This document shows, piece by piece, positions 31,071-51,094 of a stretch of 60,738 nt of DNA. Origin of the DNA: an uncultured Oscillospiraceae bacterium (GTDB lineage Bacteria > Bacillota > Clostridia > Oscillospirales > Oscillospiraceae); assembly GCA_947629245.1 (NCBI GenBank), contig CANRDC010000007.1:1-60738 (forward strand). Reading direction: 5' to 3'. Under the pieces are notes generated by a model. The model was given only the letters and a program-made list of their open reading frames with translations, was not told where the DNA came from and made no database searches. Position numbers and translations under genes: made by a program. Positions within the stretch are counted from its first letter, which is position 1, and each line of letters opens with the position of its first letter.

Positions 31071-33770
31071 ATGACCACTTCCCCCCTTGAACGGAAAAAC
31101 CGGATACTGTCCGCCTTGTGGGTGTGTCTGGCCGCCATGGGCCTGACGGCGCTGGTGCTGGGGGCGGTGTACGCTCTGCGGGGCATATGGCCCTTCGGCA
31201 CGGACAACGTGGCCTATATGGACGCCGCCCAGTTCTATGTCCCCAATTACTACAGCCTGTGGGACTCCCTGCACGGGGACCTGTCCGGCGGCGCGTGGAG
31301 GCAGCTGCTCTATCCCTATAACTGGCCGTTTTATTTCGTGGCCCGGGACCATGTGCTGGAGGCCATGAGCCTGTACCTGGCCATCCGGATGCTGCTCGTC
31401 GCCCTGTTCGCCGCCGTCGCTCTGTGCTGGCGGTTCCCCCGGCTGAGCGGCGTATGGAAAACGGTCTTCGCCTTGCTTTACGCCTTCTCCGGCTTCGTCC
31501 TGCAGTACTACTCCAATTTCGGCTGGCTCACCGCCGTGACGGTGTTCCCGCTGCTGCTGCTGGGGCTGGAGCGGCTGCTGCGGGAGGGGAAATGCGGCCT
31601 GTACACGGCGATGTACGCCTACTTCCTCTATATGGGCGTGTACTACGCCTACATGGCGACGGTCTATATCCTGCTGTTCGCGCTGGGATATATCCTCCTG
31701 GTGCTGCCGAAGGACCGCCGGGGCGGACGGGCCTTCCGGCTGGGGGTGTCCACGGCGCTGGCTCTGGGCATATGCTCCCGCCGGTGGCTGCGCAATTCCG
31801 CCGCCCTGGCCGGTGGGGCCCGGTTTCAGGAAAATCTGGACTCCGGCCTTCTCTCCGGCATGACCACCTGGAACATCCCCAACACCCGGCACACCTTCCT
31901 CATGCTCATGGGCATGAGCCTGATCGCCGCCCTGTTTCTGCTGGCCCTTCTGCGCCAGCGGACCGCCCCCAGGTCGGAGCGAAAACGGGCCATCCGGTTT
32001 TTCGGCTATATGCTGGGCCTGTTCGCCCTGCCCATGGTCTTTACCAACATCGACACCGCCTGGCACTTCGGCCAGTACAACTTCTTCCCCATGCGCTACG
32101 GCTATATGCTCCCGGCCACGCTGATCGCGGGCGGGTGCCTGGCGTTGGAGGACGAGACCCGGACGGATGCCGCGCCCCTTCCGTCCGGCGTGTGGCGTCT
32201 GCCGTGGGGAGATCTCGCCGCCGGGATCTGCGGGGCCGTGGGTGGTCTGCTTGTCCTGATCCCCCCCGTACAGCGGGCGCTGCGGGAATACGGCGCGTGC
32301 TTTCTCAATACGCTGGGCGCGGCGGGCTATTGGAGATGGTTCGCCATGTACGCCGCCGGAGGGATCATGTTCACCGCCCTGTACCTGCTGCTGCGGGCGC
32401 TTCCGCCCAAGCGGGCCGCCTGGGCCGTGCTGGCGGCTGTCCTTTTACAGCTGGGCGCCAACGCCTGGGGCAGCATCGCCCCCAACGACGACCACACCTA
32501 CACCCACGAATACGACCCGGCCTATATCGACACGGCGGAGCGGCTGCACGACTATTTCGCCGCCCAGCCCCTTGCCCCCCTGGAGCGGGTCAAGAACGTG
32601 GACAACAGCCTGAACGCCGGATATCCCGCCGTCGCCGGGGTGAGCGCCCTGTCCTCCATCGACTCCAACGCCTCCGCCGGGAAGCTGGGCGTGTTCGAGG
32701 ACCTGGGCTATACCGTCAACTACTTCCGCATCCTGGACACCGGCGGCACGGTGTTCACCGACATGCTTCTGAACGTGGACCGGGTCCTGTCCGCGTCGGC
32801 CCTGGACGGGGACCTGTACCTGTCCGGGGACACGGTGGACGGCGTACAGGCGGGCTTCAGCCGTTACCCCGGCGTGCTGGGGCTCATGTACGACGCCGAC
32901 GCCTTGGACGGCTACTTCGACCTGACCACCCTGGCGGACCGGCTCAACGCCCTGTACGGGGCCTTCACCGGCTCGGACGCACCCCTGGCCCATGACCTGG
33001 CCCCGGAGATGAGCGTGTCCGGGGAGGGCATGCGCGCGTATACCCTGACCTGTCGGCTGGACAGGCCCGCGTTCGTCTATATGGCCGTGGATGGCGTGGC
33101 CATGAACATCGCCGCCAACGGGAAGGCCGTGACGGCGCCCTCCTACCGCAACCTGAACAACACGGTATACCCGGCCCCCTTCAACTCCAACCTGCTGTGT
33201 CTGGGCCTGTTCGAGGCGGGGGACGCGGAGATATCCTTCGCCTCCGCCATGGAGCTGGCCCCGTCGGACGTGACGCTGCTGGGGCTGGACAAGGGGCTGC
33301 TGGACAGCTTCCGGGCGGACGCGGACCTGGACGAGGATATGACCCTGGAAAAGACCGAAAACGGCTATACCGTCACCGTCGCCGCCCAGGGGGATGGAAA
33401 GCGGCTGTTCCTGCCCATCATGGACCCAGTTGGCTGGCAATGTACCGTCAACGGCGAGGAGACGGCTCTGAGCTACTTCATCGGCGTCATGACCAGCGTC
33501 CCGCTCCGGGCGGGGGAGAATACTGTGGTCCTGACCCGTGGCGGCGGGAGCGTGTCCACGCTGGGGCGCGCGCTGCCATGGCTGTGCCTGGTCCTGGCGG
33601 CCGGGTGGCTGGTCCTGTGCCGCCGGAGGCGGTCGGAGAGCTTCCCGCCCCGCTGGGCCGGGAGCGCCTCGCTGGCGCTGTTTTACGCCGCCGCCGCGGC
33701 CGTCGTCTGCTTTGTGTATATCGCGCCCACGGTCCTTCTGATCGTTCGCGGCACGGTGGTCTGGTTCTGA
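31071..33770 (+). CDS. YfhO-family polytopic membrane protein
   Basis: An 899-aa protein: an N-terminal half with about twelve membrane helices, a large extracytoplasmic C-terminal part, and a final helix near residue 840. YfhO proteins are GT-C-like and, in Bacillus subtilis, YfhO moves sugar from an undecaprenyl carrier (made by CsbB) to lipoteichoic acid. The loop DNVAYMDAAQFYVPNYYSLW after helix 1 carries acidic residues as expected. A local oddity: around 31760-31810 the frame reads SRRWLRNS inside a predicted helix, whereas another frame reads HMLPPVAAQF, closer to the family, so a compensated frameshift is possible. Starts at 31056 or 31071; neither has a clear ribosome site. A second YfhO gene is at 46311. 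Confidence 0.82.
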   Translation: MTTSPLERKNRILSALWVCLAAMGLTALVLGAVYALRGIWPFGTDNVAYMDAAQFYVPNYYSLWDSLHGDLSGGAWRQLLYPYNWPFYFVARDHVLEAMSLYLAIRMLLVALFAAVALCWRFPRLSGVWKTVFALLYAFSGFVLQYYSNFGWLTAVTVFPLLLLGLERLLREGKCGLYTAMYAYFLYMGVYYAYMATVYILLFALGYILLVLPKDRRGGRAFRLGVSTALALGICSRRWLRNSAALAGGARFQENLDSGLLSGMTTWNIPNTRHTFLMLMGMSLIAALFLLALLRQRTAPRSERKRAIRFFGYMLGLFALPMVFTNIDTAWHFGQYNFFPMRYGYMLPATLIAGGCLALEDETRTDAAPLPSGVWRLPWGDLAAGICGAVGGLLVLIPPVQRALREYGACFLNTLGAAGYWRWFAMYAAGGIMFTALYLLLRALPPKRAAWAVLAAVLLQLGANAWGSIAPNDDHTYTHEYDPAYIDTAERLHDYFAAQPLAPLERVKNVDNSLNAGYPAVAGVSALSSIDSNASAGKLGVFEDLGYTVNYFRILDTGGTVFTDMLLNVDRVLSASALDGDLYLSGDTVDGVQAGFSRYPGVLGLMYDADALDGYFDLTTLADRLNALYGAFTGSDAPLAHDLAPEMSVSGEGMRAYTLTCRLDRPAFVYMAVDGVAMNIAANGKAVTAPSYRNLNNTVYPAPFNSNLLCLGLFEAGDAEISFASAMELAPSDVTLLGLDKGLLDSFRADADLDEDMTLEKTENGYTVTVAAQGDGKRLFLPIMDPVGWQCTVNGEETALSYFIGVMTSVPLRAGENTVVLTRGGGSVSTLGRALPWLCLVLAAGWLVLCRRRRSESFPPRWAGSASLALFYAAAAAVVCFVYIAPTVLLIVRGTVVWF

Positions 33771-33784
33771 GAAGGAGGCTTTTC

Positions 33785-34804
33785 ATGCGGATACTCGTCA
33801 CCGGCGGCGCCGGGTTCATCGGCGCCAACTTCGTCTACTACACGTTGAAAAACCACCCTGACTATGATATCATCTGCGTGGACAGCCTGACCTACGCCGG
33901 GAACCTGTCCACCCTGCAAAAGGCCCTGAAAAGCCCCCGGTTCACCTTCTACAGGCAGGACATCCGGGACCGGGACGGCATCGACGCCATCTTCCAAAAG
34001 GAGCGGCCCGACGCGGTGGTGAATTTCGCCGCCGAGAGCCATGTGGACCGGTCCATCGAGACGCCGGAGCTGTTTTTGCAGACCAACATCCTGGGCGCGC
34101 AGGTGATGATGGACGCCTGTCTGCGCTACGGGAACGTCCGGTTCCATCAGGTGTCCACCGACGAGATATACGGGGACCTGCCCCTGGACAGGCCGGACCT
34201 GCTGTTCACGGAAAACTCCCCGCTGCGGCCCTCCAGCCCCTACAGCGCCTCCAAGGCCGGGGCCGATATGCTGACGCTGGCCTACTTCCGGACCTATGGC
34301 CTTCGGGCCACCGTCAGCCGCTGCTCCAACAACTACGGACCCTTCCAGTTCCCGGAAAAGCTTATCCCCCTCATGATCGCCAACGCCCTGGAGGACAAGC
34401 CCCTGCCGGTCTACGGCCAGGGCCTGAACGTCCGGGACTGGCTGTATGTGGCCGACCACTGCAGGGCCGTCGACCTGATCCTGGAAAAGGGCGAGCCCGG
34501 CCAGGTGTACAACGTGGGCGGACACAACGAGATGCGCAACATCGACATCGTAAAGCTCCTGTGCGCCCAGCTGGGCAAGCCGGAGAGTTTGATCACCTTC
34601 GTGACGGACCGGAAGGGTCATGACCTGCGCTACGCCATCGACCCGGCCAAAATACGCGCCGAGCTGGGCTGGGAGCCGCAGACCCCCTTCGCCGAGGGGC
34701 TGAAAAAGACCGTCCGGTGGTATCTGGACAACCGCCCCTGGTGGGAGCAGATCATCTCCGGCGAATACAGAAACTACTATCAGCGGATGTACGGCGACCG
34801 CTGA
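33785..34804 (+). CDS. rmlB: dTDP-glucose 4,6-dehydratase
   Basis: Converts dTDP-glucose to dTDP-4-keto-6-deoxyglucose with bound NAD. The 339-aa product has the Rossmann motif GGAGFIGAN (residues 7-15), NFAAESHVDRSIE, the catalytic STDEIYGD and YSASKAG (Tyr/Lys), and DWLYVADHCRA near residue 220. AAGGAGG stands ahead of ATG 33785; the longer upstream frame is a shadow of the YfhO gene. It is the only RML-pathway gene here, so its product must be used by the neighbouring transaminase, not turned into rhamnose; RmlA is expected elsewhere in the genome. Confidence 0.95.
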   Translation: MRILVTGGAGFIGANFVYYTLKNHPDYDIICVDSLTYAGNLSTLQKALKSPRFTFYRQDIRDRDGIDAIFQKERPDAVVNFAAESHVDRSIETPELFLQTNILGAQVMMDACLRYGNVRFHQVSTDEIYGDLPLDRPDLLFTENSPLRPSSPYSASKAGADMLTLAYFRTYGLRATVSRCSNNYGPFQFPEKLIPLMIANALEDKPLPVYGQGLNVRDWLYVADHCRAVDLILEKGEPGQVYNVGGHNEMRNIDIVKLLCAQLGKPESLITFVTDRKGHDLRYAIDPAKIRAELGWEPQTPFAEGLKKTVRWYLDNRPWWEQIISGEYRNYYQRMYGDR

Positions 34805-34829
34805 GCGCCTGTTTGGAGGAAGAAGCCTT

Positions 34830-35966
34830 ATGATCCCCTTCAACGTGCCCCCCTACTGCGGCCGGGAGGACGCCTATGTCCTGGAGGCCATCCACTCCCA
34901 TAAGATCAGCGGCGACGGGGCCTTCACGAAAAAATGCCACGCCTGGCTGCAGGAGCATACCGGCGCGGCCAAAGCCCTGCTCACCACCAGCTGCACCCAC
35001 GCGCTGGATATGTCGGCGCTTCTGTGTCGGCTCCGGCCGGGGGACGAGGTCATCCTGCCCTCGTATACCTTCTCCTCCACGGCCAACGCCTTCGTGCTGG
35101 CCGGGGCGACGCCCGTATTCGTGGACGTCCGGCCGGATACCATGAACATCGACGAGACGCTCATCGAGGACGCCATCACCGACCGGACCCGTGTCGTCTG
35201 CGTCATGCACTACGCCGGGGTGGCCTGCGAGATGGACGCCGTCATGGACATCGCCCGGCGGCACGGTCTGCTGGTGGTGGAGGACGCCGCCCAGGCCGTC
35301 ATGGCCTCTTACAAGGGCAGGGCCCTGGGCACCATCGGCGATTACGGCTGCTACAGCTTCCACGAGTCGAAAAACTACTCCATGGGCGAGGGCGGCGCGC
35401 TGCTTCTGCGCCAGGACGACCCCCGGGCGGAGATCATCCGGGAGAAGGGCACCAACCGGGCCCGGTTCCTCCGGGGCCAGGTGGACAAGTACACCTGGGA
35501 GGACCTGGGCTCCAGCTACCTGCCCAGCGAGCTGAACGCCGCGTACCTCTACGCCCAGCTGGAAATGGCGGACGAGATCAACGCCGCCCGGCTCCACTGC
35601 TGGGCCCTGTACCGGCAGATGCTGGCGCCTCTGGCGGAGCAGGGGCGCATCGACTGGCAGACCGTGCCGGAGGGCTGCGCGCACAACGCCCATATGTTCT
35701 ACATCAAGGCAAAGGACCTGGCCGAGCGGACAGCGCTGACCGCCTGGCTGAAGGAGCGCGGCGTACAGGCCCCCTTCCACTACGTGCCCCTGCACTCCGC
35801 CGCCGCCGGGCTTCGCTTCGGCCGGTTCCACGGCCAGGACAGATACACCACCCGTGAGAGCGAGCGGCTGCTGCGCCTGCCCATGTTCTACGGCCTGACC
35901 GACAGCCAGGTGGAGCAGGCCGCCGAGGCGGTGACAGAGTTTTACAAGAGGCGGCGCGGCCTATGA
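34830..35966 (+). CDS. wecE: dTDP-4-amino-4,6-dideoxygalactose transaminase, WecE/RffA type
   Basis: PLP enzyme that aminates the RmlB product to dTDP-Fuc4N. The 378-aa product has the PLP-anchoring motif SFHESKNYSMGEGGALL with the Schiff-base Lys near residue 182, VVEDAAQAVMASYKG before it, and SYTFSSTANAFVLAGATPVF near residue 75. These motifs are those of RffA/WecE rather than the 3-aminotransferases. GGAGG precedes ATG 34830. Together with RmlB it predicts an amino sugar whose free amine could be acylated by later genes. Confidence 0.92.
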   Translation: MIPFNVPPYCGREDAYVLEAIHSHKISGDGAFTKKCHAWLQEHTGAAKALLTTSCTHALDMSALLCRLRPGDEVILPSYTFSSTANAFVLAGATPVFVDVRPDTMNIDETLIEDAITDRTRVVCVMHYAGVACEMDAVMDIARRHGLLVVEDAAQAVMASYKGRALGTIGDYGCYSFHESKNYSMGEGGALLLRQDDPRAEIIREKGTNRARFLRGQVDKYTWEDLGSSYLPSELNAAYLYAQLEMADEINAARLHCWALYRQMLAPLAEQGRIDWQTVPEGCAHNAHMFYIKAKDLAERTALTAWLKERGVQAPFHYVPLHSAAAGLRFGRFHGQDRYTTRESERLLRLPMFYGLTDSQVEQAAEAVTEFYKRRRGL

Positions 35967-37306
35967 CCGGCGAGCGGCTCAAAAACCCCGGCCTGACAAA
36001 GCAGCGCCGGGCCGGTACGGCCGCCGCCCTCGCCATGAGCGGTCTGCTGTTTGGGCTGGTGTACGCGGTGGTGTTCAACTTCCGCCGGGATTTCACCGTC
36101 AGCGACTTCGCTCCCCATATCGCCTGGGCCCTTCAGATGGACGGGCGGGCGGCGCTCTCGTCGTTTTACAACGGTCAGGAGCGGCTCTGGCACATCTTCG
36201 TGCGCATGCTGATCGGGATGGGCGTGACCAACATCTGGACGGCGGCCGCGCTGGTGACGGCGGCCGCGGACGCCGCCGCCTGTTTCCTCGTCTACAAATG
36301 CCTGGACCGGACCGTACCGAAAAAGCTGCCCCGGTGGCTTCTGGCCGGGCTGGTCCTGTGCGTGTTCCTGGCCGGCAGCCTCACCCTGCCCGGCCACAGC
36401 TTTTATCGGGACCGCGCCGCCGTGAACACCTGGCACAACCCCACCAATATCATGGTGCGGCCCTTTGCCGCCGCGGTGTTTTACATGACCGTGGACATCT
36501 ACGACCGCCGCCGTTACGGCGGCCCGGCGGAGACGGCGGACGGACGCCTCGCCTTTTCCGGCGGCTTTTGGACCCGGCTGCGCTCGCCGGTCTTTACCCG
36601 CGCGCAGGCGGTTCTCTACCCGCTGTGCATACTGCTCTCGGCTTACGCCAAGCCCTCGTTCCTGCAGGTCTTCGCCCCGGCGGTCTTTCTCTTCCTGCTG
36701 GCCGACGTGATCCGCACGCGGGGAAAGCTGCTGCCTTGCTGCATCCGGCTGGCGCTGGCGTACCTGCCGGCGGCGCTGATCGTGCTGGCGCAGCTGTTCC
36801 GGTTCTTCGGCGGGTCCGTCTCCGTGGGCGCCGTCACGGACAGCCCGGACGCGGCCGCGCAGGCCGCCTCGGGCATCGCCGTCTACTTCCTCCAGCCGTC
36901 CTTTTCCGGCGCGGGCGAGCTTTTGCTGGCCACGGCCAGACGTCTGCTGTCGGCCCTGTACCCCTGCGCGTTCCCCCTGTCCGTGCTGCTGGCGGCGCCT
37001 CGGCGGGGCTGGAAAAATACCTCCTTCCGGCTGGGCTGGCTGTGCGTGGCGGCGGGGCTGCTGGAGATGACGCTCCTGCACGAGACCGGCTCGCGGGCCG
37101 AACACGGGAACTTCAGCTGGGGCTTCTATCTGTCCATATGGCTTTTATGGACCGCCGCCGCGGGGGCTTACGCCGAACTTCTGCAAGAGCGCAGCCGTGC
37201 CGGGACCGCCGTCCGGTGGGTGAGCACGCCGCTGCTGGCCTGGCATATGGCCTGCGGCGTCCTGTACGTCGAGCGCATCCTCCGCACCGTACAGTATTAT
37301 TTCTGA
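35963..37306 (+). CDS. Polytopic membrane protein, possible GT-C glycosyltransferase
   Basis: A 447-aa protein with about ten hydrophobic segments. After the first helix comes the loop FRRDFTVSDFAPHIAWALQM, an acidic Asp-rich first loop with a following His that resembles GT-C enzymes. The family is not recognised with confidence; a polymerase (Wzy-like) is the alternative. ATG 35963 overlaps the transaminase stop (ATGA), so its expression is coupled to amino-sugar synthesis. Confidence 0.6.
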   Translation: MTGERLKNPGLTKQRRAGTAAALAMSGLLFGLVYAVVFNFRRDFTVSDFAPHIAWALQMDGRAALSSFYNGQERLWHIFVRMLIGMGVTNIWTAAALVTAAADAAACFLVYKCLDRTVPKKLPRWLLAGLVLCVFLAGSLTLPGHSFYRDRAAVNTWHNPTNIMVRPFAAAVFYMTVDIYDRRRYGGPAETADGRLAFSGGFWTRLRSPVFTRAQAVLYPLCILLSAYAKPSFLQVFAPAVFLFLLADVIRTRGKLLPCCIRLALAYLPAALIVLAQLFRFFGGSVSVGAVTDSPDAAAQAASGIAVYFLQPSFSGAGELLLATARRLLSALYPCAFPLSVLLAAPRRGWKNTSFRLGWLCVAAGLLEMTLLHETGSRAEHGNFSWGFYLSIWLLWTAAAGAYAELLQERSRAGTAVRWVSTPLLAWHMACGVLYVERILRTVQYYF

Positions 37307-37323
37307 AAAAAGAAGGGCTCCCC

Positions 37324-38436
37324 ATGAAAAAGCTCGCCATCATCGGCGCAAACGAATTTCAAGACCCCCTCATCGAAAAGGCGAAGCAGATGGGCTACGA
37401 GACCCATGTGTTCGCCTGGGCGGCGGGGGACGTGGGAGAGCGGACCGCGGACGTGTTCCACCCCATCAGCATCACGGAAAAGGAGGCCATTTGGCAGGTG
37501 TGCCGCGATGTGGGCGCGGGGGCCTGCTGCTCCATCGGGTCGGATCTGGCCGTGCACACGGTCAACTTCATCCAGCGGAAGCTTGGCAATCCCTGCAACC
37601 CGGAGATCACGGACACCGTGGCCACCGACAAATACGAGATGCGCCGGGCTTTACAGGCCGCGGGGGTCCCCTGTCCGGCCTTCCTGAGGGTCTCGGCCGT
37701 CCCGGACGAGAAGGCCCTCGCGGGCATGGGCTGGCCCCTGATCGTCAAGCCCGCCGACCGGTCCGGCAGCCGGGGCATCTTCCGGGTGGAGAACTACGGC
37801 CAGCTGGCCGAGGCCGTGCCTCAGTCCATAGAGCAGTCCTTTCAAAAGCGGGCCGTCATCGAGCAGTTCATCCCCGGCCCGGAGTACAGCTGCGAGAGCG
37901 TCTCCTTCGCCGGAGAGCACCATATCCTGGCCCTGACGAAAAAATACACCACCGGCGCGCCCCACTTCATCGAGACGGGCCACGCGGAGCCCTCGGACAT
38001 CCCGCCCGACGCGGAGCGGACCGTCCGGACCCAGGTTGCGGCGGCGCTGGACGCGCTGCACATCCGATACGGCGCAAGCCACGCGGAGTTCAAGCTCACC
38101 GACGGCGGCCAGGCGCGGATCATCGAGATCGGCGCCCGGATGGGCGGGGACTGCATCGGCTCGGACCTGGTGTATCTGTCCACGGGCGTGGACTTCATGG
38201 CGGCGGTGATCGACACGGCCTGGGGCAGGGCCCCGGACCTGACGGTCAAGCGGACGCCCCGGCGGGCGGAGATCCGGTTCATCTTCACCCAGGAGGACGT
38301 AAAGGCCATGGAGCGGGCCCGGCGGACCGCCCCGGAGAGCGTCTGGCGGGCGGTCTATGACGGCCGGGCGGGCGAGGCGGTGACGGACAGCTCCAACCGC
38401 CATGGCTACTGGATCACGGAGGGGGCGGCTCTATGA
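37324..38436 (+). CDS. ATP-grasp ligase 1
   Basis: A 370-aa ATP-grasp enzyme; such enzymes join a carboxylate to an amine or thiol through an acyl phosphate. It begins MKKLAIIGANEFQDPLIEKA (pre-ATP-grasp fold), has TDKYEMRRALQAAGVPCPAF, the nucleotide site PLIVKPADRSGSRGIF, VIEQFIPGPEYSCESVSF, and the metal site ARIIEIGARMGGDCIGSDLV. A much longer frame opens upstream, but it is the shadow of the membrane-protein gene. It resembles peptide- and carboxylate-amine ligases of secondary metabolism, not purine enzymes. Substrates unknown. Confidence 0.82.
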   Translation: MKKLAIIGANEFQDPLIEKAKQMGYETHVFAWAAGDVGERTADVFHPISITEKEAIWQVCRDVGAGACCSIGSDLAVHTVNFIQRKLGNPCNPEITDTVATDKYEMRRALQAAGVPCPAFLRVSAVPDEKALAGMGWPLIVKPADRSGSRGIFRVENYGQLAEAVPQSIEQSFQKRAVIEQFIPGPEYSCESVSFAGEHHILALTKKYTTGAPHFIETGHAEPSDIPPDAERTVRTQVAAALDALHIRYGASHAEFKLTDGGQARIIEIGARMGGDCIGSDLVYLSTGVDFMAAVIDTAWGRAPDLTVKRTPRRAEIRFIFTQEDVKAMERARRTAPESVWRAVYDGRAGEAVTDSSNRHGYWITEGAAL

Positions 38437-39692
38437 GTCTGAACGGAAAGAGGCTTTTGCTGCTGGGCGGGTCCAACAGCACGGAGGACATCCTCCGCTT
38501 CGCCGGGGAAAACGGCGTCACGCTGATCGCCACCGCCCCGGCCCGGTTTGGCCTCACGGCCCTGAAGCGGATCGCGGACGAGCGCTACGAGGCGGACGCG
38601 GTGGACGAGACGGCTCTGGTCCGGCTCATCCGGGACGCCCGTATCGACGGCATATTCCCCGGCAACAATGAGGACGTGATGCCCCACGCCATCGCGGCGG
38701 CGGAGGCGGCGGGACTGCCCGTCTACTGCGACGGCCCCATGTGGGACGCGTGCGCCAACAAGGCCAAATTCAAAAAGATGTGCCGCGACGCGGGCATCCC
38801 TGTGGCGGGGACCTACGACCTGGCCGTCACGGACATAGCGGACATCCCCTATCCCGTGGCGGTGAAGCCCGCGGACAGCTGCGGCAGCCAGGGCTTTTCC
38901 ATCTGCCGCAAAGCGGAGGAGCTTTCGGCCGCGCTGGAAAAGGCCCTGCCCTTCTCCCGGACCGGCACGGTGCTGGTGGAGGACTTCATCCCCTACGACG
39001 CCGCCATCATCCACTATACCCTGGTGGGCGGCGAGGCGTATTTCGGCGGCGTCTCCGACAAGCGCTCCATGCTCCTGGGGGAGGGCGGCGGCTCCGTCAT
39101 GGCCCTGCAGGAGTTTCCCTCCGCCGACACGGGGGCGTATCTGGCCGCGCTGGACGAGAAGGTCCGGGCCATGTTCCGGCGCAACGGCATGCACGACGGG
39201 CCGGTGTGGATCGAGGCGTTCAACGACCATGGCCGGTTCATCTTCAACGAGATGGGCTACCGCTTCGGCGGGTCCATGACCTATTACCCCGTGCGGTATT
39301 TTACAGGCCTTGACCAGCTGGAGTGCATGCTGCGCTACTGTTTGGGCGAAAAGCCGGACCCGGCGGCGCACACCTCCCTGATCCGGCGGGACAGGCCCGC
39401 CGGACGGCGCTACGCCATACTGCCCCTGCATGTGCGCCCCGGTAGGCTCCGGGCCGTGTACGGCGAGGACCAGGTCCGCGCCATGGAGGATGTGTACGCC
39501 TACGTGCCCATCCATTGGGCGGGTGACGTGGTCCGGGCCACCGGCACGGTGAGCCAGGTGTTCTGCTATCTGCACCTTTTGTACGACGACGAAGCCGCCC
39601 TGGCCGACACCGTGGGCCGGATCGTCCGGACTCTGCGTGTGCAGGGCGAGGACGGGGAGGAGCTGCTGTTTCAGCTGTACCACTTTTCCTGA
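38433..39692 (+). CDS. ATP-grasp ligase 2
   Basis: A 419-aa ATP-grasp enzyme, distinct in sequence from ligase 1. It starts MSLNGKRLLLLGGSNSTEDI, has ANKAKFKKMCRDAGIPVAGT, the nucleotide site YPVAVKPADSCGSQGFSICR, VLVEDFIPYDAAIIHYTLVG, and a C-terminal RFIFNEMGYRFGGSMTYY metal-binding segment, followed by an extra domain of about 120 residues. The start overlaps ligase 1 (ATGA), so the two are made in step. Substrates unknown. Confidence 0.82.
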   Translation: MSLNGKRLLLLGGSNSTEDILRFAGENGVTLIATAPARFGLTALKRIADERYEADAVDETALVRLIRDARIDGIFPGNNEDVMPHAIAAAEAAGLPVYCDGPMWDACANKAKFKKMCRDAGIPVAGTYDLAVTDIADIPYPVAVKPADSCGSQGFSICRKAEELSAALEKALPFSRTGTVLVEDFIPYDAAIIHYTLVGGEAYFGGVSDKRSMLLGEGGGSVMALQEFPSADTGAYLAALDEKVRAMFRRNGMHDGPVWIEAFNDHGRFIFNEMGYRFGGSMTYYPVRYFTGLDQLECMLRYCLGEKPDPAAHTSLIRRDRPAGRRYAILPLHVRPGRLRAVYGEDQVRAMEDVYAYVPIHWAGDVVRATGTVSQVFCYLHLLYDDEAALADTVGRIVRTLRVQGEDGEELLFQLYHFS

Positions 39693-39706
39693 TAGGGGGC
39701 GCGCCT

Positions 39707-40780
39707 ATGAAAAACGAGCTGTTCATCCGGTATCTGTCCCAGGAGGACCTGCTCCGGGCCGGATGCTTCGACATACCGAACGCCATGGACGTGGTGGAAA
39801 AGGTCCTGACGGCCTATGAGAACGGCCGGGTGCTCTATCCGGACAAGACTGTGCAGATCTTCGACGAGGCCGTGCAGAGCCGCATCAACATCCTGCCCGC
39901 CACGCTGCTGGACGAGAAGGTCTGCGGGGCCAAGTGGATCTCTGTGTTTCCCGCCAACCCCCGGCGGTTCGGCTGTCAGAACCAGTCGGCGGTCATATTG
40001 CTGTCCAGCCTGGAGACGGGCTACCCCATGGCGCTGCTGGAGGGCATGCTGTGCTCCAGCATCCGCACCGCCGCCGTCAGCGCCGTGGCCGCCAAATACC
40101 TGGCCCGGCCCGATTCCGCCGAGATCGGCCTCCTGGGCGCGGGGGAGATGGCCCGGATGCACTTCGTGGCGCTGAAAACGGCCCTGCCGGGGCTGCGGGT
40201 CTGCCGGGTGGCCTCCCGGAGGTCGGCCACGGAGCGGGACTTTCTCGAGCACATCGCGCCCTTCTACCCCGACGTGGAGTTCGTTCTCTGCCAGGGCGGC
40301 TATGAGAAGGCCGCCACGGGCGCGGACGTGATCGTGACCGCCATCAGCGGCCAGGAGCCGGTGCTGCATGGGGCCTGGTGCAAGCCGGGGGCCTTTTACA
40401 CCCACGTGGGCGGCTGGGAGGACGACGACGAGACCGTCTTTCGGGCGGACAAGCTCGTGTGCGACAGCTGGCATCATCTGCGGAGCCGGGGCAGCCCCAC
40501 CCTCACCCGGCTCTATCAGGCCGGAAAGCTCCATGACGGGGACATCTACGGGGACCTGCCCAAGATCGTGGCGGGCAAGCTCCCCGGCCGAGAGAGCGAC
40601 CGGGAATTCATCTACTTCAACGCCGTGGGCCTGTCCTATGTGGACGTGGCCCTGGGCTATGACTTTTTCAAGCGGGCCGGACATCTGGCCGCCGTACTGC
40701 CTTTGCAGCGGGAGGGCATCTTCGACCACCCGCTGGAAAGCACCGGCGAGCCGGGCCGCTTCCGGCTGAAAAGATCCTGA
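39707..40780 (+). CDS. Ornithine cyclodeaminase/mu-crystallin family enzyme
   Basis: A 357-aa NAD(P)-binding enzyme. Family members make cyclic imino acids or proline from ornithine, reduce ketimines, or (SbnB) condense amino acids with glutamate. Visible parts are YLSQEDLLRAGCFDIPNAMD at the N-terminus, CGAKWISVFPANP (substrate site), the Rossmann motif IGLLGAGEMARMHFVALK near residue 140, and DVIVTAISGQEPVLHG. The position between ATP-grasp and glycosyltransferase genes suggests it supplies the unusual amino or imino acid that the ligases attach. Strong sequence for the family, weak for the reaction. Confidence 0.8.
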   Translation: MKNELFIRYLSQEDLLRAGCFDIPNAMDVVEKVLTAYENGRVLYPDKTVQIFDEAVQSRINILPATLLDEKVCGAKWISVFPANPRRFGCQNQSAVILLSSLETGYPMALLEGMLCSSIRTAAVSAVAAKYLARPDSAEIGLLGAGEMARMHFVALKTALPGLRVCRVASRRSATERDFLEHIAPFYPDVEFVLCQGGYEKAATGADVIVTAISGQEPVLHGAWCKPGAFYTHVGGWEDDDETVFRADKLVCDSWHHLRSRGSPTLTRLYQAGKLHDGDIYGDLPKIVAGKLPGRESDREFIYFNAVGLSYVDVALGYDFFKRAGHLAAVLPLQREGIFDHPLESTGEPGRFRLKRS

Positions 40781-40798
40781 GACGGGAGGTGAGCTTTC

Positions 40799-41749
40799 AT
40801 GCTCGTATCCGTTTGTATCCCCTGTTACCGCAGCGCCGCCACCCTGCCCACGGTGGTGGAGGAGGTGCGGCGGGCCTTCGCCGCCCACGAGGGGTACGAC
40901 TACCAGCTCGTGCTGGTGAACGACTGCTCCCCCGACGACACCTATGAGGTGATACGCGGGCTGTGCCGGGAGGACAAGAAGATCGTCGGGGTGGACCTGT
41001 CCCGCAACTACGGTCAGGCCGCCGCCAAGATGGCCGCCCTCGCATACGCCACCGGCGACGCGGTGGTCTATATGGACGACGACGGCCAGCATCCCGCCGA
41101 GGGCATCTTCCCCATGCTGGACAAGCTGGCGGAAGGCTACGACATCGTCTACGCCGCCTTCCCCCAAAAGCGCCATTCCATCTTCAAGCGGGTCACCAGC
41201 GCCATTTATCAGAAGGTCTCCGAGTGGATCGGCAACAAGCCCAAGGGGATCTCCGTGTCCTCCTTCACCGCCTGGAGCCGGATGGCGGCGGACGCCGTGC
41301 AGCGCTATAAAAGCCCCTTCCCCGCGGCGGGGCTGTATCTGAACAAGATCACCACACGGGTGGCCAACGTGCCCATGCCCCATCGGGACCGGCTGGCGGG
41401 CGAGAGCGGCTATACGCTGGGCAAGCTCGTGAGCCTTGCCGTGACGGCCCTGACCAACTTCTCCATCGTGCCCCTGCGGGCCGCGTCCTTCCTGGGCGTC
41501 GGCTGCGCCATCGTGGGCTTCATTGCGGGGGCGGTCACGATCATCCGCAAGCTCATCCATCCCGCCATCGCCGCGGGCTTCACCACCAGCATCGCCACCC
41601 AGCTCTTCATCGGCGGCGTCATCATGATGATCCTGGGCATCCTGGGCGAGTATGTGGGCAGGATATACATGACCGTCAGCGACCTGCCCCAGTATAACAT
41701 CCGGCGGACGGAAAACGTGCCGGAAGGCGGAAAAGAGGACCGGACATGA
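40799..41749 (+). CDS. GT2 glycosyltransferase, CsbB/ArnC-like
   Basis: Probably transfers a sugar from a nucleotide donor to undecaprenyl phosphate at the inner membrane face. The 316-aa product has a GT2 N-terminal domain (VCIPCYRSAATLPTVVEEV, LVNDCSPDDTYEVI, VYMDDDGQHPAEG with the DDD/QHP motifs) and two C-terminal membrane helices (LGVGCAIVGFIAGAVTII and TQLFIGGVIMMILGILGEYV), the CsbB/GtrB/ArnC design. GGAGG precedes the ATG. It would make the lipid-linked sugar that the YfhO or GT-C proteins use. Confidence 0.9.
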   Translation: MLVSVCIPCYRSAATLPTVVEEVRRAFAAHEGYDYQLVLVNDCSPDDTYEVIRGLCREDKKIVGVDLSRNYGQAAAKMAALAYATGDAVVYMDDDGQHPAEGIFPMLDKLAEGYDIVYAAFPQKRHSIFKRVTSAIYQKVSEWIGNKPKGISVSSFTAWSRMAADAVQRYKSPFPAAGLYLNKITTRVANVPMPHRDRLAGESGYTLGKLVSLAVTALTNFSIVPLRAASFLGVGCAIVGFIAGAVTIIRKLIHPAIAAGFTTSIATQLFIGGVIMMILGILGEYVGRIYMTVSDLPQYNIRRTENVPEGGKEDRT

Positions 41750-42726
41750 GGGATATTTTCCGCGAGGCCACGCTCAAAGGGCTCTTTGCCAGCTCCTTCG
41801 GCTTTTTCCGGCAGGAGATGCGCAAGCAGTACCACGGTCCGGGCCTTCTGCTCGTGTGGCTGAGCATGTTCTGGTGCGTGCTGCGCCACGGGTCAAGCCC
41901 CGCCGAGTACGCCCAGCTGAATTTCGACAAAAAAAGCGACCGGGAGCGGGCCCGGTATTTCACCATGTTCCGCTTCGAGCGCTTCATCAAAAAGGCCAAT
42001 ACCGGCGACAAGGAGCTGTTCATCAACAAGGCCGCCTTCAACGAGCGCTTCGCCGCCTACCTGCACCGGGACTGGCTGGACGTGTCCAAGGCTGGCTTTG
42101 ACGAGTTCGCCGCCTTCATCCGCTCCCACGGTCAGGTGATGATCAAGGCCACCAGCCTGTCCTGCGGCAAGGGCATCACAAAATACGCCTACGACCCGGC
42201 GGACGACCTGCGCGCTCTGTACGACGCCAACCGGGACATGCTGCTGGAGCAGGTCATCGTCCAGCACCGGGAGCTGGCGGCCTTCAATCCCGCCAGCACC
42301 AACGTGCCCCGGCTGAACACCATGGTGGACGGCCAGGGCAACGTGCATGTCTTCTCCGCCTTCCTCCGCACCGGCGCCGGGGACGCGGTGGTGGACAATC
42401 TGGGCGCCGGCGGCATGGCCGCCCACATCGACGTGGACACCGGCGTCGTCACCACCCCCGCCATCGACATGCACCGGCGGGAATACATCGTCCACCCCCT
42501 CTCCGGCCAGGTGTTCCCAGGCTTCCGCGTCCCCCGCTGGGAGGAGGCGAAAAGCGCCGTCATCGCCGCCGCCAGGGAGGTCCCCGGCATGCGCTACATC
42601 GGCTGGGACGTGGCTGTGACGGACGACGGCGTGTGCCTCATCGAGGGCAACGACCGGGCGGACATCTGCGTGCGCCAGTTCGTGGACCGGCAGGGCTGGT
42701 ACAAGCAGCTCCGGGCCATGCTGTGA
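41746..42726 (+). CDS. Sugar-transfer-associated ATP-grasp protein (ligase 3)
   Basis: A 326-aa protein of the ATP-grasp type that is habitually next to glycan genes. It has a basic N-terminus with one hydrophobic segment (GLLLVWLSMFWCVL), VMIKATSLSCGKGITKYAY (nucleotide-binding), LLEQVIVQHRELAAFNP, RLNTMVDG, and a C-terminal metal site VCLIEGNDRADI. The start overlaps the GT2 stop (ATGA). Family members probably attach amino acids or other carboxylates to surface sugars, but the reaction is not established. Confidence 0.8.
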   Translation: MRDIFREATLKGLFASSFGFFRQEMRKQYHGPGLLLVWLSMFWCVLRHGSSPAEYAQLNFDKKSDRERARYFTMFRFERFIKKANTGDKELFINKAAFNERFAAYLHRDWLDVSKAGFDEFAAFIRSHGQVMIKATSLSCGKGITKYAYDPADDLRALYDANRDMLLEQVIVQHRELAAFNPASTNVPRLNTMVDGQGNVHVFSAFLRTGAGDAVVDNLGAGGMAAHIDVDTGVVTTPAIDMHRREYIVHPLSGQVFPGFRVPRWEEAKSAVIAAAREVPGMRYIGWDVAVTDDGVCLIEGNDRADICVRQFVDRQGWYKQLRAML

Positions 42727-42731
42727 ACGCC

Positions 42732-43781
42732 ATGACGCCGTATCTTTCCGTGATCGTGCCGGTCTATCGGGCCGAGCCCTGGCTGCGGGCGTGCGCGGAC
42801 AGCATCCTGGGCCAGACCCTCCGGGAGCTGGAGCTGATCCTGGTGGACGACGGCTCGCCGGATGGCTGTCCGGCCATCTGCGACGAGTACGCGAAAAAGG
42901 ATCCCCGCGTCAGGGTGCTCCACAAGGCAAACGGCGGCGTGGCCTCGGCGGTGGCCGCGGGCATCCGGGCCGCCGAGGGCGCGTTCATCGGCTTCATCGA
43001 CAGCGACGACTGGATAGACCCGGACTATTACGGGGAGCTGTACCGCTGCATCACGGAGCAGGATGCGGACATGGTCGAGGGCCTGATGACCGACGAGCTC
43101 CAGCAGCCCGACGGCTGGCAGAAGTCCCGCGACTGCGTCCGCGCCGGGACCGTGGCGCACAGCGGTCCCGAGGCCATCCGGCGGCTCACCGGGCGGTACA
43201 TGACCTCCTTTCTGTACGACGGCGCGCCGGACCGGCCCCTCTCCTACAGCAAGTGCGACAAGCTGTTCCGCCGAAGGCTCGTCACGGACAACCTGGCCTA
43301 CTATGACGAGCGCCTTTCTCTGGGGGAGGACGCCGTGCTGATCGCCGCCGTGCTGCCCGACTGCGGAAAAGTGGTCACGCTGAAAAGCGCCGCCCGGTAT
43401 CACCGCCGGGTCCTTTCCGGGTCCGTCTCCCACCAGACAGGGTCCGAGCAGATCCGCCGCATCGCCGCCGTGGGAGAGGCTCTGCGGAGGCTCGCGGACG
43501 GAGGAAAGCCCCTGAACAGGGCCGCCGTCGACGCGTTCATCGGCAGCATGGTCCACACCCGGATCTACCGGGCCGCGGCCCTGCCGGATATGCGGACCGG
43601 AGAGAAGGGCAGGCTCATGAAGGACATGCTCCGTCAGGCCCCCGCCGGGGCGCTGGAGGCGTTCCTCCGTCTGCGGGACGACGGCTCTCTGCGGGTGTTT
43701 TACGGCCTGCTCCGGCTGGGCCTGACCGCCCCCTGCGTGTGGATGGCGTCCCTCCACGGCGCGATGCGAAAGAAGGAGTGA
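42732..43781 (+). CDS. GT2 family glycosyltransferase
   Basis: A 349-aa cytosolic inverting glycosyltransferase. It starts MTPYLSVIVPVYRAEPWLRA, with LILVDDGSPDGCPAICDEYA and the DXD region GFIDSDDWIDPDYY. No membrane helices are seen, so it acts on a lipid- or nucleotide-linked acceptor at the membrane surface. A GTG at 42723 (M-N-A-M-T) overlaps the previous stop as GTGA and is an alternative start. Confidence 0.9.
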   Translation: MTPYLSVIVPVYRAEPWLRACADSILGQTLRELELILVDDGSPDGCPAICDEYAKKDPRVRVLHKANGGVASAVAAGIRAAEGAFIGFIDSDDWIDPDYYGELYRCITEQDADMVEGLMTDELQQPDGWQKSRDCVRAGTVAHSGPEAIRRLTGRYMTSFLYDGAPDRPLSYSKCDKLFRRRLVTDNLAYYDERLSLGEDAVLIAAVLPDCGKVVTLKSAARYHRRVLSGSVSHQTGSEQIRRIAAVGEALRRLADGGKPLNRAAVDAFIGSMVHTRIYRAAALPDMRTGEKGRLMKDMLRQAPAGALEAFLRLRDDGSLRVFYGLLRLGLTAPCVWMASLHGAMRKKE

Positions 43782-43785
43782 GAGC

Positions 43786-45363
43786 ATGACCCGCACAAAA
43801 TACTCTTTCTTCAACTGGATCACCGGCGTGGGCGCGTCCGTGCTGACGCTGATCCTGAGCTTTGTCACACGGGCGGTGTTCATCCGGACCCTGGGCAACA
43901 GCTACCTGGGCATCGAGGGCCTGTTCACCAACATCCTGTCCTTCCTCTCCCTGGCCGAGCTGGGCTTTGGCTCCGCCATCGTCTTTAAGCTCTATAAGCC
44001 CCTGGAGGAGGACGACCGGCCCCGGCTGCGGGCGCTGATGCGCCTTTACCGCCGGACATACGCCGTCATCGGCTGCGTGATCGCGTTTCTGGGCGTGTGC
44101 CTGATCCCCCTGCTGCCGGTCCTTATCAAGGACTACGCCACACTGGCGGAGCTGCGGCTGAACGGGACCGTCATCTTCCTCATATATCTGGTCAACAGCG
44201 CCTCGTCCTACTGGTTCTTCGCCTATAAGACCTCCTTCGTCCAGGCCGCCCAGAAGTCCTATGTGCTGAACATCCTGGGCTACGGCATGAAGGTCGCGAG
44301 CAGCGTATGTCAGATCGTCATCCTGCTCACGACGGGCGATTTCATCGTCTATCTGCTGGTCCAGATCGGATTCGTCATCCTCACCAACCTGCTGTACGCG
44401 GCCGTGTGCGACAGGCGGTATCCCTACCTGCGGGAAAAGACCGGCGAGCGGATCTCCCGGCGGGAATTCCGGGAGTTTCTCCGGGACTGCTCGGCGCTGT
44501 TCCTCTACCAGGCCGCCACCGTCGTCGTCAACGCCTCGGACAACATCGTGCTTTCCGTCCTGCTGGGGCTGGAGGCGGTGGGCGTTTACTTCAAATACAC
44601 CTCCGTCAAGACCGCCCTGCTGGGGCTTTTGTACAACTTCTTCAGCGGGGTGCGGGCCTCCGTGGGCAGCCTGTTTACCACCGGCAATCTGGACTGGTCC
44701 CGGCTGGTCTTTCGGACCGTGGGCCTGTGTACCTCCATTTTGTTCGGCGTCACCGCCGTGGGCACGGCGGTGCTGCTGAACGATTTCATCGCCCTCTGGC
44801 TGGGCCCGGAGCACGTGCTCACCGTCTGGACCACGGCCGCCGGGACGACCGTCGCCTCGCCCCTGGCGCTGCTGGTGGCCGTTGAGATGTACCTGACCGG
44901 ACGGGCCTACTGCTACGGCACCTTCCGCTCCTCCATGGGGCTGTTCCGCCAGATGCGGTTCCGGCCGCTGGTCAATATCGTCGTGAATCTGGCCGTATCC
45001 ATCTATGCGGTCCCCCGGCTGGGTCCCGTCGGCTGCGTGCTGGGCACGATCGCGTCCTATCTTGCCTCCAACCTCCTGTTCGACCCCTTCATCATCTGCG
45101 GCAAGGTGCTGGAAATGCCGGTCGGCCGCTATTTTTTGAGCACGCTGGGGCAGGACGCGGTGACGGTCTGCGCGGGGCTCGCGAGCTGGCGGCTGTGTCG
45201 GCTCATCCCCCTGGGCGGGGTGCCGGGCTTCATCGTCCACGGCGTCGTGTGCGTGGCGGTGACCGGCGGCGCGTTCGCGGCCTGCTATTGGCGCACAGGC
45301 GAGTTCCGCTTCCTTCTCAGCACCGCCAAAAGCCTCCTCCCCGGACGCAAAACGGACCCGTGA
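43786..45363 (+). CDS. Wzx-type oligosaccharide flippase
   Basis: A 525-aa polytopic protein of the polysaccharide-export (MOP) family with about fourteen helices. It starts MTRTKYSFFNWITGVGASVL and has the conserved region RTLGNSYLGIEGLFTNILSF and FLYQAATVVVNASDNIVLSV. It would move the lipid-linked sugar unit across the membrane. AAGGAG precedes the ATG. It is the last gene of the block and is followed by a strong terminator. Confidence 0.92.
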   Translation: MTRTKYSFFNWITGVGASVLTLILSFVTRAVFIRTLGNSYLGIEGLFTNILSFLSLAELGFGSAIVFKLYKPLEEDDRPRLRALMRLYRRTYAVIGCVIAFLGVCLIPLLPVLIKDYATLAELRLNGTVIFLIYLVNSASSYWFFAYKTSFVQAAQKSYVLNILGYGMKVASSVCQIVILLTTGDFIVYLLVQIGFVILTNLLYAAVCDRRYPYLREKTGERISRREFREFLRDCSALFLYQAATVVVNASDNIVLSVLLGLEAVGVYFKYTSVKTALLGLLYNFFSGVRASVGSLFTTGNLDWSRLVFRTVGLCTSILFGVTAVGTAVLLNDFIALWLGPEHVLTVWTTAAGTTVASPLALLVAVEMYLTGRAYCYGTFRSSMGLFRQMRFRPLVNIVVNLAVSIYAVPRLGPVGCVLGTIASYLASNLLFDPFIICGKVLEMPVGRYFLSTLGQDAVTVCAGLASWRLCRLIPLGGVPGFIVHGVVCVAVTGGAFAACYWRTGEFRFLLSTAKSLLPGRKTDP

Positions 45364-45667: not shown

Positions 45668-46111
45668 TCAGTTCGAGGTCCCCATGACGTATTCGACGCC
45701 GTTGGCGAAACGGGTCGTGGCGACATAGAAGCCGTCGTAGGCCAGGATGCCGTCCTCGCCGCCCTCCACCAGGCAGCTGGCGGTGTATTCCGCGCCCTTC
45801 GGCTCGCCGATGGCCTCGTACAGCTCCTCCACCGCATGGCCCCGCAGCTCCTCCGCCTTGCGCTGGTCCTCGCTCAGCGTGGCCAGCCACTCCTCCTGGG
45901 TCATGCCCTCGGGGGCGTGGTTGTCGTCGGCGGCCAGACCCATCACCTGGCTGTCCTCACCGGCGGCGGGGGGCGCGGTCACCGTGGGCAGATCCGTCGC
46001 CGCGGCGGGGTCCTTCGTCTCGGCGGCGTCGCCGCCCGATTTGCCGCAGGCCGTGCAGAGCATGGCCAATATCATCATCAGCGCCAATGCGGCGCACCAG
46101 GTCTTTTTCAT
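45668..46111 (-). CDS. Small lipoprotein of unknown function
   Basis: A 147-aa protein with a signal peptide and lipobox (MILAMLCTACGKSGG, Cys near residue 22), a flexible Ala/Pro/Asp linker to about residue 65, and a compact domain with TQEEWLATLSEDQRKAEELR and a C-terminal ILAYDGFYVATTRFANGVEY. It should be exported and anchored to the membrane. Family not recognised. It has a perfect promoter of its own and is divergent from the second YfhO gene. Confidence 0.75.
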   Translation of the reverse strand: MKKTWCAALALMMILAMLCTACGKSGGDAAETKDPAAATDLPTVTAPPAAGEDSQVMGLAADDNHAPEGMTQEEWLATLSEDQRKAEELRGHAVEELYEAIGEPKGAEYTASCLVEGGEDGILAYDGFYVATTRFANGVEYVMGTSN

Positions 46112-46217: not shown

Positions 46218-46246
46218 TTGTCCTGCAACGGGTTTTCTGGTATAAT
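46218..46246 (+). promoter_or_regulatory. Promoter of the second YfhO gene
   Basis: TTGTCC (46218-46223), 17-base spacer, TATAAT (46241-46246). It lies back to back with the lipoprotein promoter, the two -35 boxes being 16 bases apart. Confidence 0.75.
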
Positions 46247-46310
46247 GCCCAATGTCCTGCAAAGTATAAACGGGCTGGTCCGGTTTTTCTCCCAATATGA
46301 AAGGCACGTC

Positions 46311-50949: not shown

Positions 50950-51042
50950 AGGGACTCTCCTTTCTCTCAGGAAACGGGATACATGCCTACGCACCGCAGC
51001 CGGTGCACAGGCATCTGTCCCGCACAAGCTATAATTCCAGGG

Positions 51043-51070
51043 TGCCGCGGCGGGCAGACCCGCCGCGGCA
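51043..51070. terminator. Intercistronic hairpin between TAXI binding protein and permease
   Basis: TGCCGCGGCGGG (51043-51054) pairs with CCCGCCGCGGCA (51059-51070), 12 bp perfect, in the gap between the two genes on the minus strand. As after trpX, it would protect or partly end the binding-protein message. Confidence 0.65.
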
Positions 51071-51094
51071 TCTCTCATTGCAATATCGGTTATT

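Follow-up and report, generated by a model that had tools for sequence, protein, structure and literature searches.

A contig in the draft genome of an uncultured Oscillospiraceae bacterium (3.08 Mb in 146 contigs; GenBank assembly GCA_947629245.1) carries an eleven-gene locus that probably equips a 4-amino sugar with an amino-acid-like side chain. The whole stretch analyzed, called the window here, is positions 1 to 60,738 of contig CANRDC010000007.1 (60,738 nt), and the locus occupies 31071..45363 in it. An initial annotation, made from the sequence alone, had proposed a surface glycan whose 4-amino sugar is N-acylated with an unusual amino or imino acid by ATP-grasp ligases; the comparisons described here strengthen this central inference, with corrections. 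Below, AG denotes an ATP-grasp protein, OCD the enzyme of the ornithine cyclodeaminase family, GT2 a family 2 glycosyltransferase, and Fuc4N the sugar 4-amino-4,6-dideoxygalactose; related loci in other genomes bear L numbers. The genes are as follows.

31071..33770, + strand: YfhO-family membrane protein, accessory (PF09586, 156 bits)
33785..34804, + strand: RmlB, dTDP-glucose 4,6-dehydratase (TIGR01181, 483 bits; cut-off 365)
34830..35966, + strand: WecE/RffA, dTDP-4-amino-4,6-dideoxygalactose (Fuc4N) transaminase (NF008687, 597 bits; cut-off 375)
35963..37306, + strand: gene 4, polytopic membrane protein, GT-C-like by context only (6 hydrophobic segments)
37324..38436, + strand: AG1, ATP-grasp ligase, slot 1 (ATP-grasp_4, PF13535, 74 bits)
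38433..39692, + strand: AG2, ATP-grasp ligase, slot 2 (weak ATP-grasp matches, two just above cut-off)
39707..40780, + strand: OCD, SbnB-like NAD(P)-dependent enzyme of the OCD/mu-crystallin family, slot 3 (PF02423, 178 bits)
40799..41749, + strand: GT2a, ArnC-like polyprenyl-phosphate glycosyltransferase (2 C-terminal hydrophobic segments; PDB match at 3.9e-39)
41746..42726, + strand: AG3, sugar-transfer-associated ATP-grasp protein, ATPgrasp_ST (PF14397, 147 bits)
42732..43781, + strand: GT2b, family 2 glycosyltransferase with no predicted membrane segments (PF00535, 117 bits)
43786..45363, + strand: Wzx-type flippase of the polysaccharide biosynthesis family (PF01943, 49 bits; cut-off 28)

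All eleven genes are open, share one strand and are contiguous, as first described, with successive gaps of 14, 25, -4, 17, -4, 14, 18, -4, 5 and 4 nt (none above 25 nt). The ATGA overlaps said to couple many of them are real, although they occur at three of the ten junctions (WecE/gene 4, AG1/AG2 and GT2a/AG3) rather than at many; an alternative GTG start of GT2b at 42723 would create a fourth. Because congeners carry loci of the same order, the arrangement is not a product of chance.

The prediction of dTDP-Fuc4N as the product of the first steps holds up and is well supported by sequence, because RmlB and WecE both exceed curated equivalog cut-offs and RmlA is available, lying outside the run but scoring above its cut-off twice elsewhere in the genome (contigs C52 and C30). 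Residues 1-358 of the 378 in WecE align with PDB 4piw, a dTDP-4-amino-4,6-dideoxygalactose transaminase, at 1.6e-156. The preference for Fuc4N stereochemistry over that of Qui4N (4-amino-4,6-dideoxyglucose) is set by the WecE equivalog model alone.

Comparison with its congeners presents the locus as a scaffold in which the slots lying between WecE and GT2a can be exchanged. Among 35 genomes of the genus, its own included, AG2 is found in 8 and WecE in 26, including all 8. We examined 18 WecE loci of the genus that lack AG2, of which L153 shows only a WecE of 68% and L159 too little to read. Slot 1 of these loci (16 readable) is filled by AG1 in 10 and by a WbqC-family protein (PF08889) in 6; slot 2 (15 readable) by the ligase AGx in 4 and by AGx2 in 11; and slot 3 (14 readable) by a hexapeptide transferase (PF00132) in 4 of 4 AGx loci and by nothing in 10 of 10 AGx2 loci. 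Loci with AG2 (the window, L077 and L079-L083) have OCD in slot 3 in 7 of 7 cases. AG1 and WbqC are each found with AGx as well as with AGx2, and the slots therefore mix.

Pairs of loci reveal where the exchanges begin and end. The DNA of L081 (AG1, AG2-OCD) is 90% identical to that of L154 (AG1, AGx-hexapeptide) from YfhO as far as the final bases of AG1, and identity resumes at 94% just before Wzx; between these borders AG2, OCD and AG3 have no match at all and GT2a is 71% identical. L161 and L169 match L170 at about 84% DNA identity to the end of WecE and at 84-85% from GT2a on, with side-chain genes that differ in between and second ligases that match at only 66% (a large membrane protein, read in L161, is also among the differing parts). 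The GT2a tree splits AG2-type loci from the others (100/100), while the trees of WecE, YfhO (only 3 AG2-type rows) and AG1 need 4, 3 and 5 type changes, with starred branches forcing 2 in each. Between types, identity averages 82% for WecE, 74% for AG1 and 58% for GT2a, against 85%, 76% and 80% within the AG2 type. Within the genus, AG2-OCD-GT2a-AG3 moves as a unit, and AG1 is common to loci that lack AG2 and OCD. This corrects the initial annotation, in that the three ATP-grasp proteins do not stand on an equal footing.

AG1 is tied to WecE. Among solved structures it comes closest to the L-amino-acid ligase BL00235 (PDB 3vot, 6e-27), and K142, E255, E268 and R272 are invariant in 14 aligned rows. 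At E<=1e-35, relatives of AG1 are found in 14 of 391 genomes of the class, its own included; at E<1e-100 they are found in 8 genomes besides its own, from 4 families, and all 8 are WecE-positive, in keeping with the proposed tie between ATP-grasp and sugar genes. WecE itself occurs in 38 of the 391 (37 of 390 besides its own), so that the hypergeometric P for the co-occurrence is 3e-9; this P value, like the one below, ignores kinship among genomes that are not independent and is optimistic. Only 1 of the 5 genomes with weaker AG1 matches (E<=1e-35) has WecE. Eleven loci with close AG1 relatives other than the window's own were examined, from the class sample plus three loci from an order sample. 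WecE lies in the same run in 9, on the same contig 53 kb off in one and on another contig in one, and all 11 runs contain a GT2a-like gene. Six of them also encode two small EamA/SMR-like proteins (SMR, small multidrug resistance) that resemble the ArnE/F flippase, one scoring just under the EamA cut-off and the other over it.

A census of genes within 6 kb of WecE in the 38 loci, some of them cut by contig ends, found an ATP-grasp gene in 18, a gene for a GNAT acetyltransferase in 8, an AMP-forming ligase in 1 and none of these in 11; hexapeptide and WbqC genes were outside the census. The ATP-grasp and GNAT profiles drew in part on members of the census, so their E-values are inflated; the genes were first detected by BLAST. 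All 18 ATP-grasp genes are on the WecE strand with the nearest stop-to-stop frame no more than 917 nt away, a measure in which frames may reach into a neighbor (the window's AG1 itself starts 1.36 kb after WecE). ATP-grasp and GNAT genes never occur together in the 38 loci (P=0.0026, kinship ignored). One Ruminococcus MAG (metagenome-assembled genome) even has parallel runs, GNAT-GT2a-SMR-SMR (L104, with RmlA, RmlB and WecE on the same contig and one stop in the WecE frame) and AG1-AG2-OCD-GT2a-SMR-SMR (L085, with one internal stop in the GT2a frame). Both the exclusion and the parallel runs are what one would expect of an ATP-grasp enzyme that carries out the N-acylation. In a different run from other Clostridia families, WecE stands with a GT2 of 230-250 aa, an ATP-grasp of about 410-440 aa and ABC-uptake-like genes (L118, L119, L124, L126, L135 and L137), and some of these runs have a LysR-like gene nearby; the ABC-uptake-like and LysR-like genes are guessed from sequence starts.

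The AG2-OCD pair recurs across phyla. An alignment-based scan for AG2 across 84,980 species, each represented by a single genome, yielded 14 loci, a lower bound for a pattern-based scan: 7 from uncultured Oscillospiraceae, 2 from Ruminococcus, 1 from Prevotella, 2 from Muribaculaceae, 1 from Tissierellia and 1 from Clostridia. Wherever the next gene is readable (13 of 13 related loci, from both Bacillota and Bacteroidota), AG2 has OCD directly after it; the count omits L078, which ends at AG2. In 13 of the 14, AG2 comes after another ATP-grasp gene; the exception, L090, reads AG2-OCD-GT2a-ATPgrasp_ST, with RmlA-RmlB-WecE-AG1 (59%) elsewhere in its genome (L103). In 11 of the 14 loci the run includes a sugar aminotransferase. 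The genomes of the remaining three each carry a WecE gene (66-70%), truncated at a contig end in one case and interrupted by an internal stop in another. Taken with the AG1 counts, this is the opposite of ATP-grasp genes occurring mostly without sugar genes, the outcome that the initial annotation had named as telling against itself. The AG2 tree unites the 13 AG2s that are linked to OCD (the window's and those of 12 loci) in a single clade (100/99); 13 selected AG2-like proteins with no adjacent OCD fall outside it, the absence of OCD being judged on flanks of about 1.5 kb for 11 of those 13; the tree leaves aside L089 and the distant AG2 matches L005, L008 and L012. The run in L087 comprises RmlA-RmlC-RmlB (all above cut-off), a flippase-like gene (by eye), DegT, an AG1-like gene, AG2, OCD and ATPgrasp_ST, nearly the window's gene set in another phylum; a search for the L087 OCD in 149 genomes of its family matched its own genome only. 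The PF14397 gene adjoins the cassette in L075/L090 as well as in L087, and L084 and L085 also carry the SMR pair.

Two of these loci have peculiarities of their own. L086 from Prevotella (7391-11269) has three consecutive ATP-grasp genes before OCD, the third lying between the AG1-like gene and AG2, which suggests a longer side chain. In L089 (7407-8685), from a Muribaculaceae MAG, the AG2 frame is broken in two, either as a pseudogene or by an assembly error.

From the gene families, strict linkages and cassette exchange seen in these sequences, we infer an order of steps, their substrates, the chemistry of OCD and AG3, and an acceptor. RmlB and WecE would make dTDP-Fuc4N; AG1 would put a first amino-acid-like residue on its 4-amino group and AG2 would ligate a second; OCD would work on the AG2 residue, where we lean toward tailoring after ligation and prior synthesis also fits; GT2a would move the finished sugar to undecaprenyl phosphate (Und-P); Wzx and the membrane proteins would export it for attachment to a surface glycan; and AG3 would probably add a further group at or after transfer. 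Assembly of the side chain is placed before GT2a because the ArnC substrate is N-formylated and because of where the cassette borders fall. We hold this scheme of stepwise amino-acylation, OCD action, ArnC-like transfer and export to be probable as a whole.

Several observations weigh against it. The optimism of the P values is one, and the 11 of 38 WecE loci with none of the N-acylating partners sought is another, as is the fact that one of the 8 GNAT matches in the census is weak and 5.5 kb away. L161/L169 and L170 have GT2a in common, within a stretch of 84-85% DNA identity, despite different slots 1-3. Contrary to prediction, a wider tree does not place the GT2a proteins of OCD cassettes from other families with the window's; that tree puts all two-ligase loci in one group apart from 6 single-acylation loci, with long branches flagged as unsure. 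A rule that GT2a always tracks the side-chain type is rejected, since GT2a is conserved across the AGx/AGx2 and AG1/WbqC exchanges and the OCD-type GT2a of other families group apart; the claim is therefore limited to GT2a moving with AG2-OCD in this genus. The class genomes with AG1 (E<=1e-35) and with OCD (E<=1e-45) are disjoint sets apart from the window's own, and none of the 9 other OCD genomes has WecE, so AG1, AG2 and OCD are not one fixed set everywhere. The AG1-like genes of Bacteroidota are only 24-25% identical. The aminotransferases of L086, L087 and L089 score best with DesI and that of L088 (Tissierellia) with PseC, all below cut-off, and the L088 genome has no RmlA match; in other lineages the cassette may accordingly serve 4-amino sugars other than Fuc4N. 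Gene 4 is only a putative GT-C enzyme. Finally, in Foldseek comparisons biotin carboxylases come only slightly behind amino-acid ligases in their similarity to AG2, so that the AG2 fold alone does not settle its substrate.

The part played by OCD admits two versions of the preferred scheme, neither of which is given more than about one chance in three. In the first, OCD makes a free amino acid, L-2,3-diaminopropionate (L-Dap) or another simple one, which AG2 ligates. The strict AG2-OCD pairing fits supply to AG2 as well as the slot of OCD fits the capping role described below, and the resemblance of OCD to SbnB rather than to a cyclodeaminase also speaks for supply. SbnB (TIGR03944) is its best NCBIfam model at 178 bits, followed by archaeal alanine dehydrogenase at 153, with ornithine cyclodeaminase (NF005762) at 80 (cut-off 350). 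Its best PDB chain is 4m54, annotated there as "putative ornithine cyclodeaminase" and which we take to be SbnB, followed by pyrroline-2-carboxylate reductase and archaeal alanine dehydrogenase. OCD and 4m54 have a D-W motif in common and a shortened loop after the glycine pair (G-G-[W/Y/R]-E in 16 aligned rows) compared with 1vll/1omo and 6t3e, which represent alanine dehydrogenase and pyrroline-carboxylate reductase. Against supply, the 178 bits fall well short of the SbnB cut-off of 327, and no SbnA scores above the TIGR03945 cut-off in any of 8 cassette genomes, a negative for which 14 control genomes, also at 0, give no positive control; the lack of an SbnA partner makes L-Dap by the staphyloferrin route unlikely. 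A simple amino acid might still be supplied by some other route, but on balance we regard this version as doubtful.

The second version, slightly more tentative, is a combinatorial assembly line in which short, tailored chains resembling peptides would grow on a nucleotide-activated 4-amino sugar with neither ribosomes nor nonribosomal peptide synthetases. AG1 or WbqC would act from slot 1, AG2, AGx or AGx2 from slot 2 and a cap from slot 3, with recombination swapping whole cassettes. OCD would supply the cap by reductive alkylation with a keto acid, to give an opine-capped sugar of the alanopine kind, because it stands where the acyltransferase-like hexapeptide protein stands in sister loci, a placement that fits a capping role. 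SbnB acts on N-(2-amino-2-carboxyethyl)-glutamate. This opine-like secondary amine is named in PMC12414870.

It is unlikely that AG2 and OCD act off the sugar, with OCD making a free non-protein amino acid and the ligases a soluble dipeptide or small molecule, their genes merely sitting in a glycan locus. AG1 and AG2 do resemble free L-amino-acid ligases. The best solved relative of AG2 by sequence is again BL00235 (3vot, 6e-9); an AlphaFold (AF2) model of mean pLDDT 87.2 has 3vot as its first match (TM 0.73/0.77; 18-19% identity in the fold match), and K145, E261, E273 and R277 are invariant in 10 aligned rows. We take these and the invariant AG1 residues to have ATP and Mg roles, judging from 3vot alignments. 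Relatives of the cassette OCDs also point this way: of seven at 47-52% identity (L068-L074), four adjoin ABC genes of the oligopeptide type (with one binding protein confirmed in Pfam), one lies beside peptidases and alanine racemase, and two in unclear settings. In the OCD tree, which leaves out L083, they are the sister group (93/90) of the cassette OCDs, whose own support is modest (86/81). The neighbors in question include M20 peptidase, alanine racemase and M81 peptidase genes, in one case also an amidohydrolase, and these neighborhoods perhaps serve to import and degrade a compound resembling an opine or a peptide. Set against an off-sugar role are the sugar aminotransferase in 11 of the 14 runs, with a WecE gene in the other three genomes, the exchange of the cassette with clean borders between WecE and GT2a or Wzx, and the lack of a small-molecule exporter among the family matches of the run.

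A conventional Wzx/Wzy polysaccharide with ordinary N-acylation, in which the ATP-grasps work on another residue, for example by amidating a uronic acid, is more unlikely still. The Wzx-type flippase and several GT2 genes favor such a polymer, and amino acids amide-linked to uronic acids are known (PMC10609480). In the other scale are the mutual exclusion of ATP-grasp and GNAT at WecE, the confinement of close AG1 relatives to WecE genomes, and the want of any uronic-acid gene among the family matches of the run. No Wzy was identified by family match in Pfam and NCBIfam scans of the run, where gene 4 is a polytopic protein without a family. 

GT2a has as its closest PDB relative the undecaprenyl-phosphate 4-deoxy-4-formamido-L-arabinose transferase ArnC (3.9e-39), and its best NCBIfam models are NF047588 (PgfS) and NF007986 (ArnC), both below cut-off (ArnC 149 of 529). 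The lipid-linked use first proposed is supported, but an ArnC-like GT2a makes a single-sugar Und-P donor, as in the Arn pathway, as likely as a Wzx/Wzy polymer. An ArnE/F-like SMR pair is absent from the contiguous run, which is the part of the genome that was searched; for an ArnT-like GT-C transferase the run offers gene 4, which matches no family.

An imino acid (proline or pipecolate) made by a cyclodeaminase, a form of the acyl group raised in the initial annotation and suggested by the family name and PF02423 membership, is the least likely N-acyl group of all, given the bit scores above and the shortened glycine-rich loop. That loop probably carries the catalytic Asp of ornithine cyclodeaminase (1u7h, which lies outside the alignment), and its shortening would remove this residue.

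Congeners differ in their YfhO, RmlB, GT-C-like, GT2b and Wzx genes, and in the copy number of GT2b. Gene 4, whose hydrophobic segments come from a simple window count, has no Pfam or NCBIfam match at E<=0.01; its relatives in the 3 congeners aligned are 53-61% identical. AG3 has no PDB relative at E<=0.1. YfhO was rejected as a core part, being present in 5 of 8 genomes tested and absent from 3 of 4 genomes with AG1 but without the cassette; by tblastn it is in 3 of 8 AG2-type loci, the window's included. In L079 (4501-8876), proteins of 718 and 734 aa take the place of the GT-C-like gene and have weak C-terminal choline-binding-repeat matches below cut-off. LicD and glycerophosphotransferase genes lie near the L079 locus on the opposite strand, a hint of a teichoic-acid-like polymer as acceptor.

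Known systems resemble parts of the locus. The Arn pathway (ArnB-ArnA-ArnC-ArnE/F-ArnT) places Ara4N on lipid A, and has in common with the locus a 4-aminotransferase, N-acylation and a GT2 with C-terminal membrane segments that transfers to Und-P, along with the SMR pair of related loci; it differs in using UDP-Ara4N and a formyltransferase, where the locus has dTDP-Fuc4N, amino-acid ligases, a Wzx-type gene and no SMR pair in the run. The dTDP-Fuc4N branch of enterobacterial common antigen (RmlB-WecE-WecD) shares the RmlB and WecE equivalogs above cut-off, whereas the locus has ATP-grasp ligases and no acetyltransferase among the family matches of the run. BL00235, the best solved relative of AG1 and AG2, with its ATP-grasp-site residues conserved, is distant from AG2 and makes free dipeptides. 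SbnB of staphyloferrin B synthesis shares loop length and D-W motif (4m54) with OCD, but the cassette genomes have no SbnA above cut-off and OCD is below the SbnB cut-off. WbqC, which is linked to glycyl-Qui4N O-antigens, and the hexapeptide transferases fill slots 1 and 3 in congeners, and belong to unrelated families. To our knowledge, the attachment of amino acids to 4-amino sugars is poorly assigned. Bacterial glycans are known to contain aminoacylated amino sugars (PMC10609480), and a title in the reference list of that paper gives alanopine on 4-amino-4,6-dideoxyglucose in Providencia alcalifaciens O35. That case is alike in that an amino acid or opine is amide-linked to a 4-amino-4,6-dideoxy sugar, and differs in its sugar, in being Gram-negative and in being known from its structure.

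The initial annotation knew of no described system with this gene set, and in an open literature library we found nothing joining ATP-grasp with Fuc4N or with Qui4N, nothing on a dideoxygalactose transaminase with ATP-grasp in an operon, nothing on ATPgrasp_ST and nothing on OCD with ATP-grasp, polysaccharide and glycosyltransferase, nor did such a system appear among the titles and abstract openings listed; most subscription journals lie outside that library, which makes the absence weak. Aminoacylated amino sugars and an Arn-like carrier route are known, and what appears to be new is a set of swappable cassettes for this decoration, of which we found no description.

A second YfhO-family protein (509 bits) is encoded about 0.85 kb downstream of Wzx, at 46218-48857 (+), and a third on contig C57 of the same genome. 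Between Wzx and the second lies a small lipoprotein-like frame on the opposite strand (45668-46111) with no Pfam match. Further on, 48922-52279 (-) holds a TRAP-TAXI-like pair, a permease of the DctM family and an NMT1_3 binding protein with an EAPADDA-like acidic linker repeated at its N-terminus. Scanning the window for Rfam families and tRNAs gave no matches. The closest named relatives of the window are Oscillospiraceae MAGs called "Lapin," a name from which alone a rabbit gut origin is inferred.

Side-chain cassettes of this kind may diversify the cell surface much as O-antigen loci do. The natural swaps tie ligases, an unusual dehydrogenase and a lipid-carrier transferase into one testable genetic system, and through it several ligase families and the OCD enzyme gain defined candidate substrates. 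They predict that the surfaces of Oscillospiraceae and some Bacteroidota vary in a way that has so far been overlooked. Should the assembly-line version be true, cassette recombination would change the surface of gut Clostridia, with the same AG2-OCD pair at hand in Bacteroidota.

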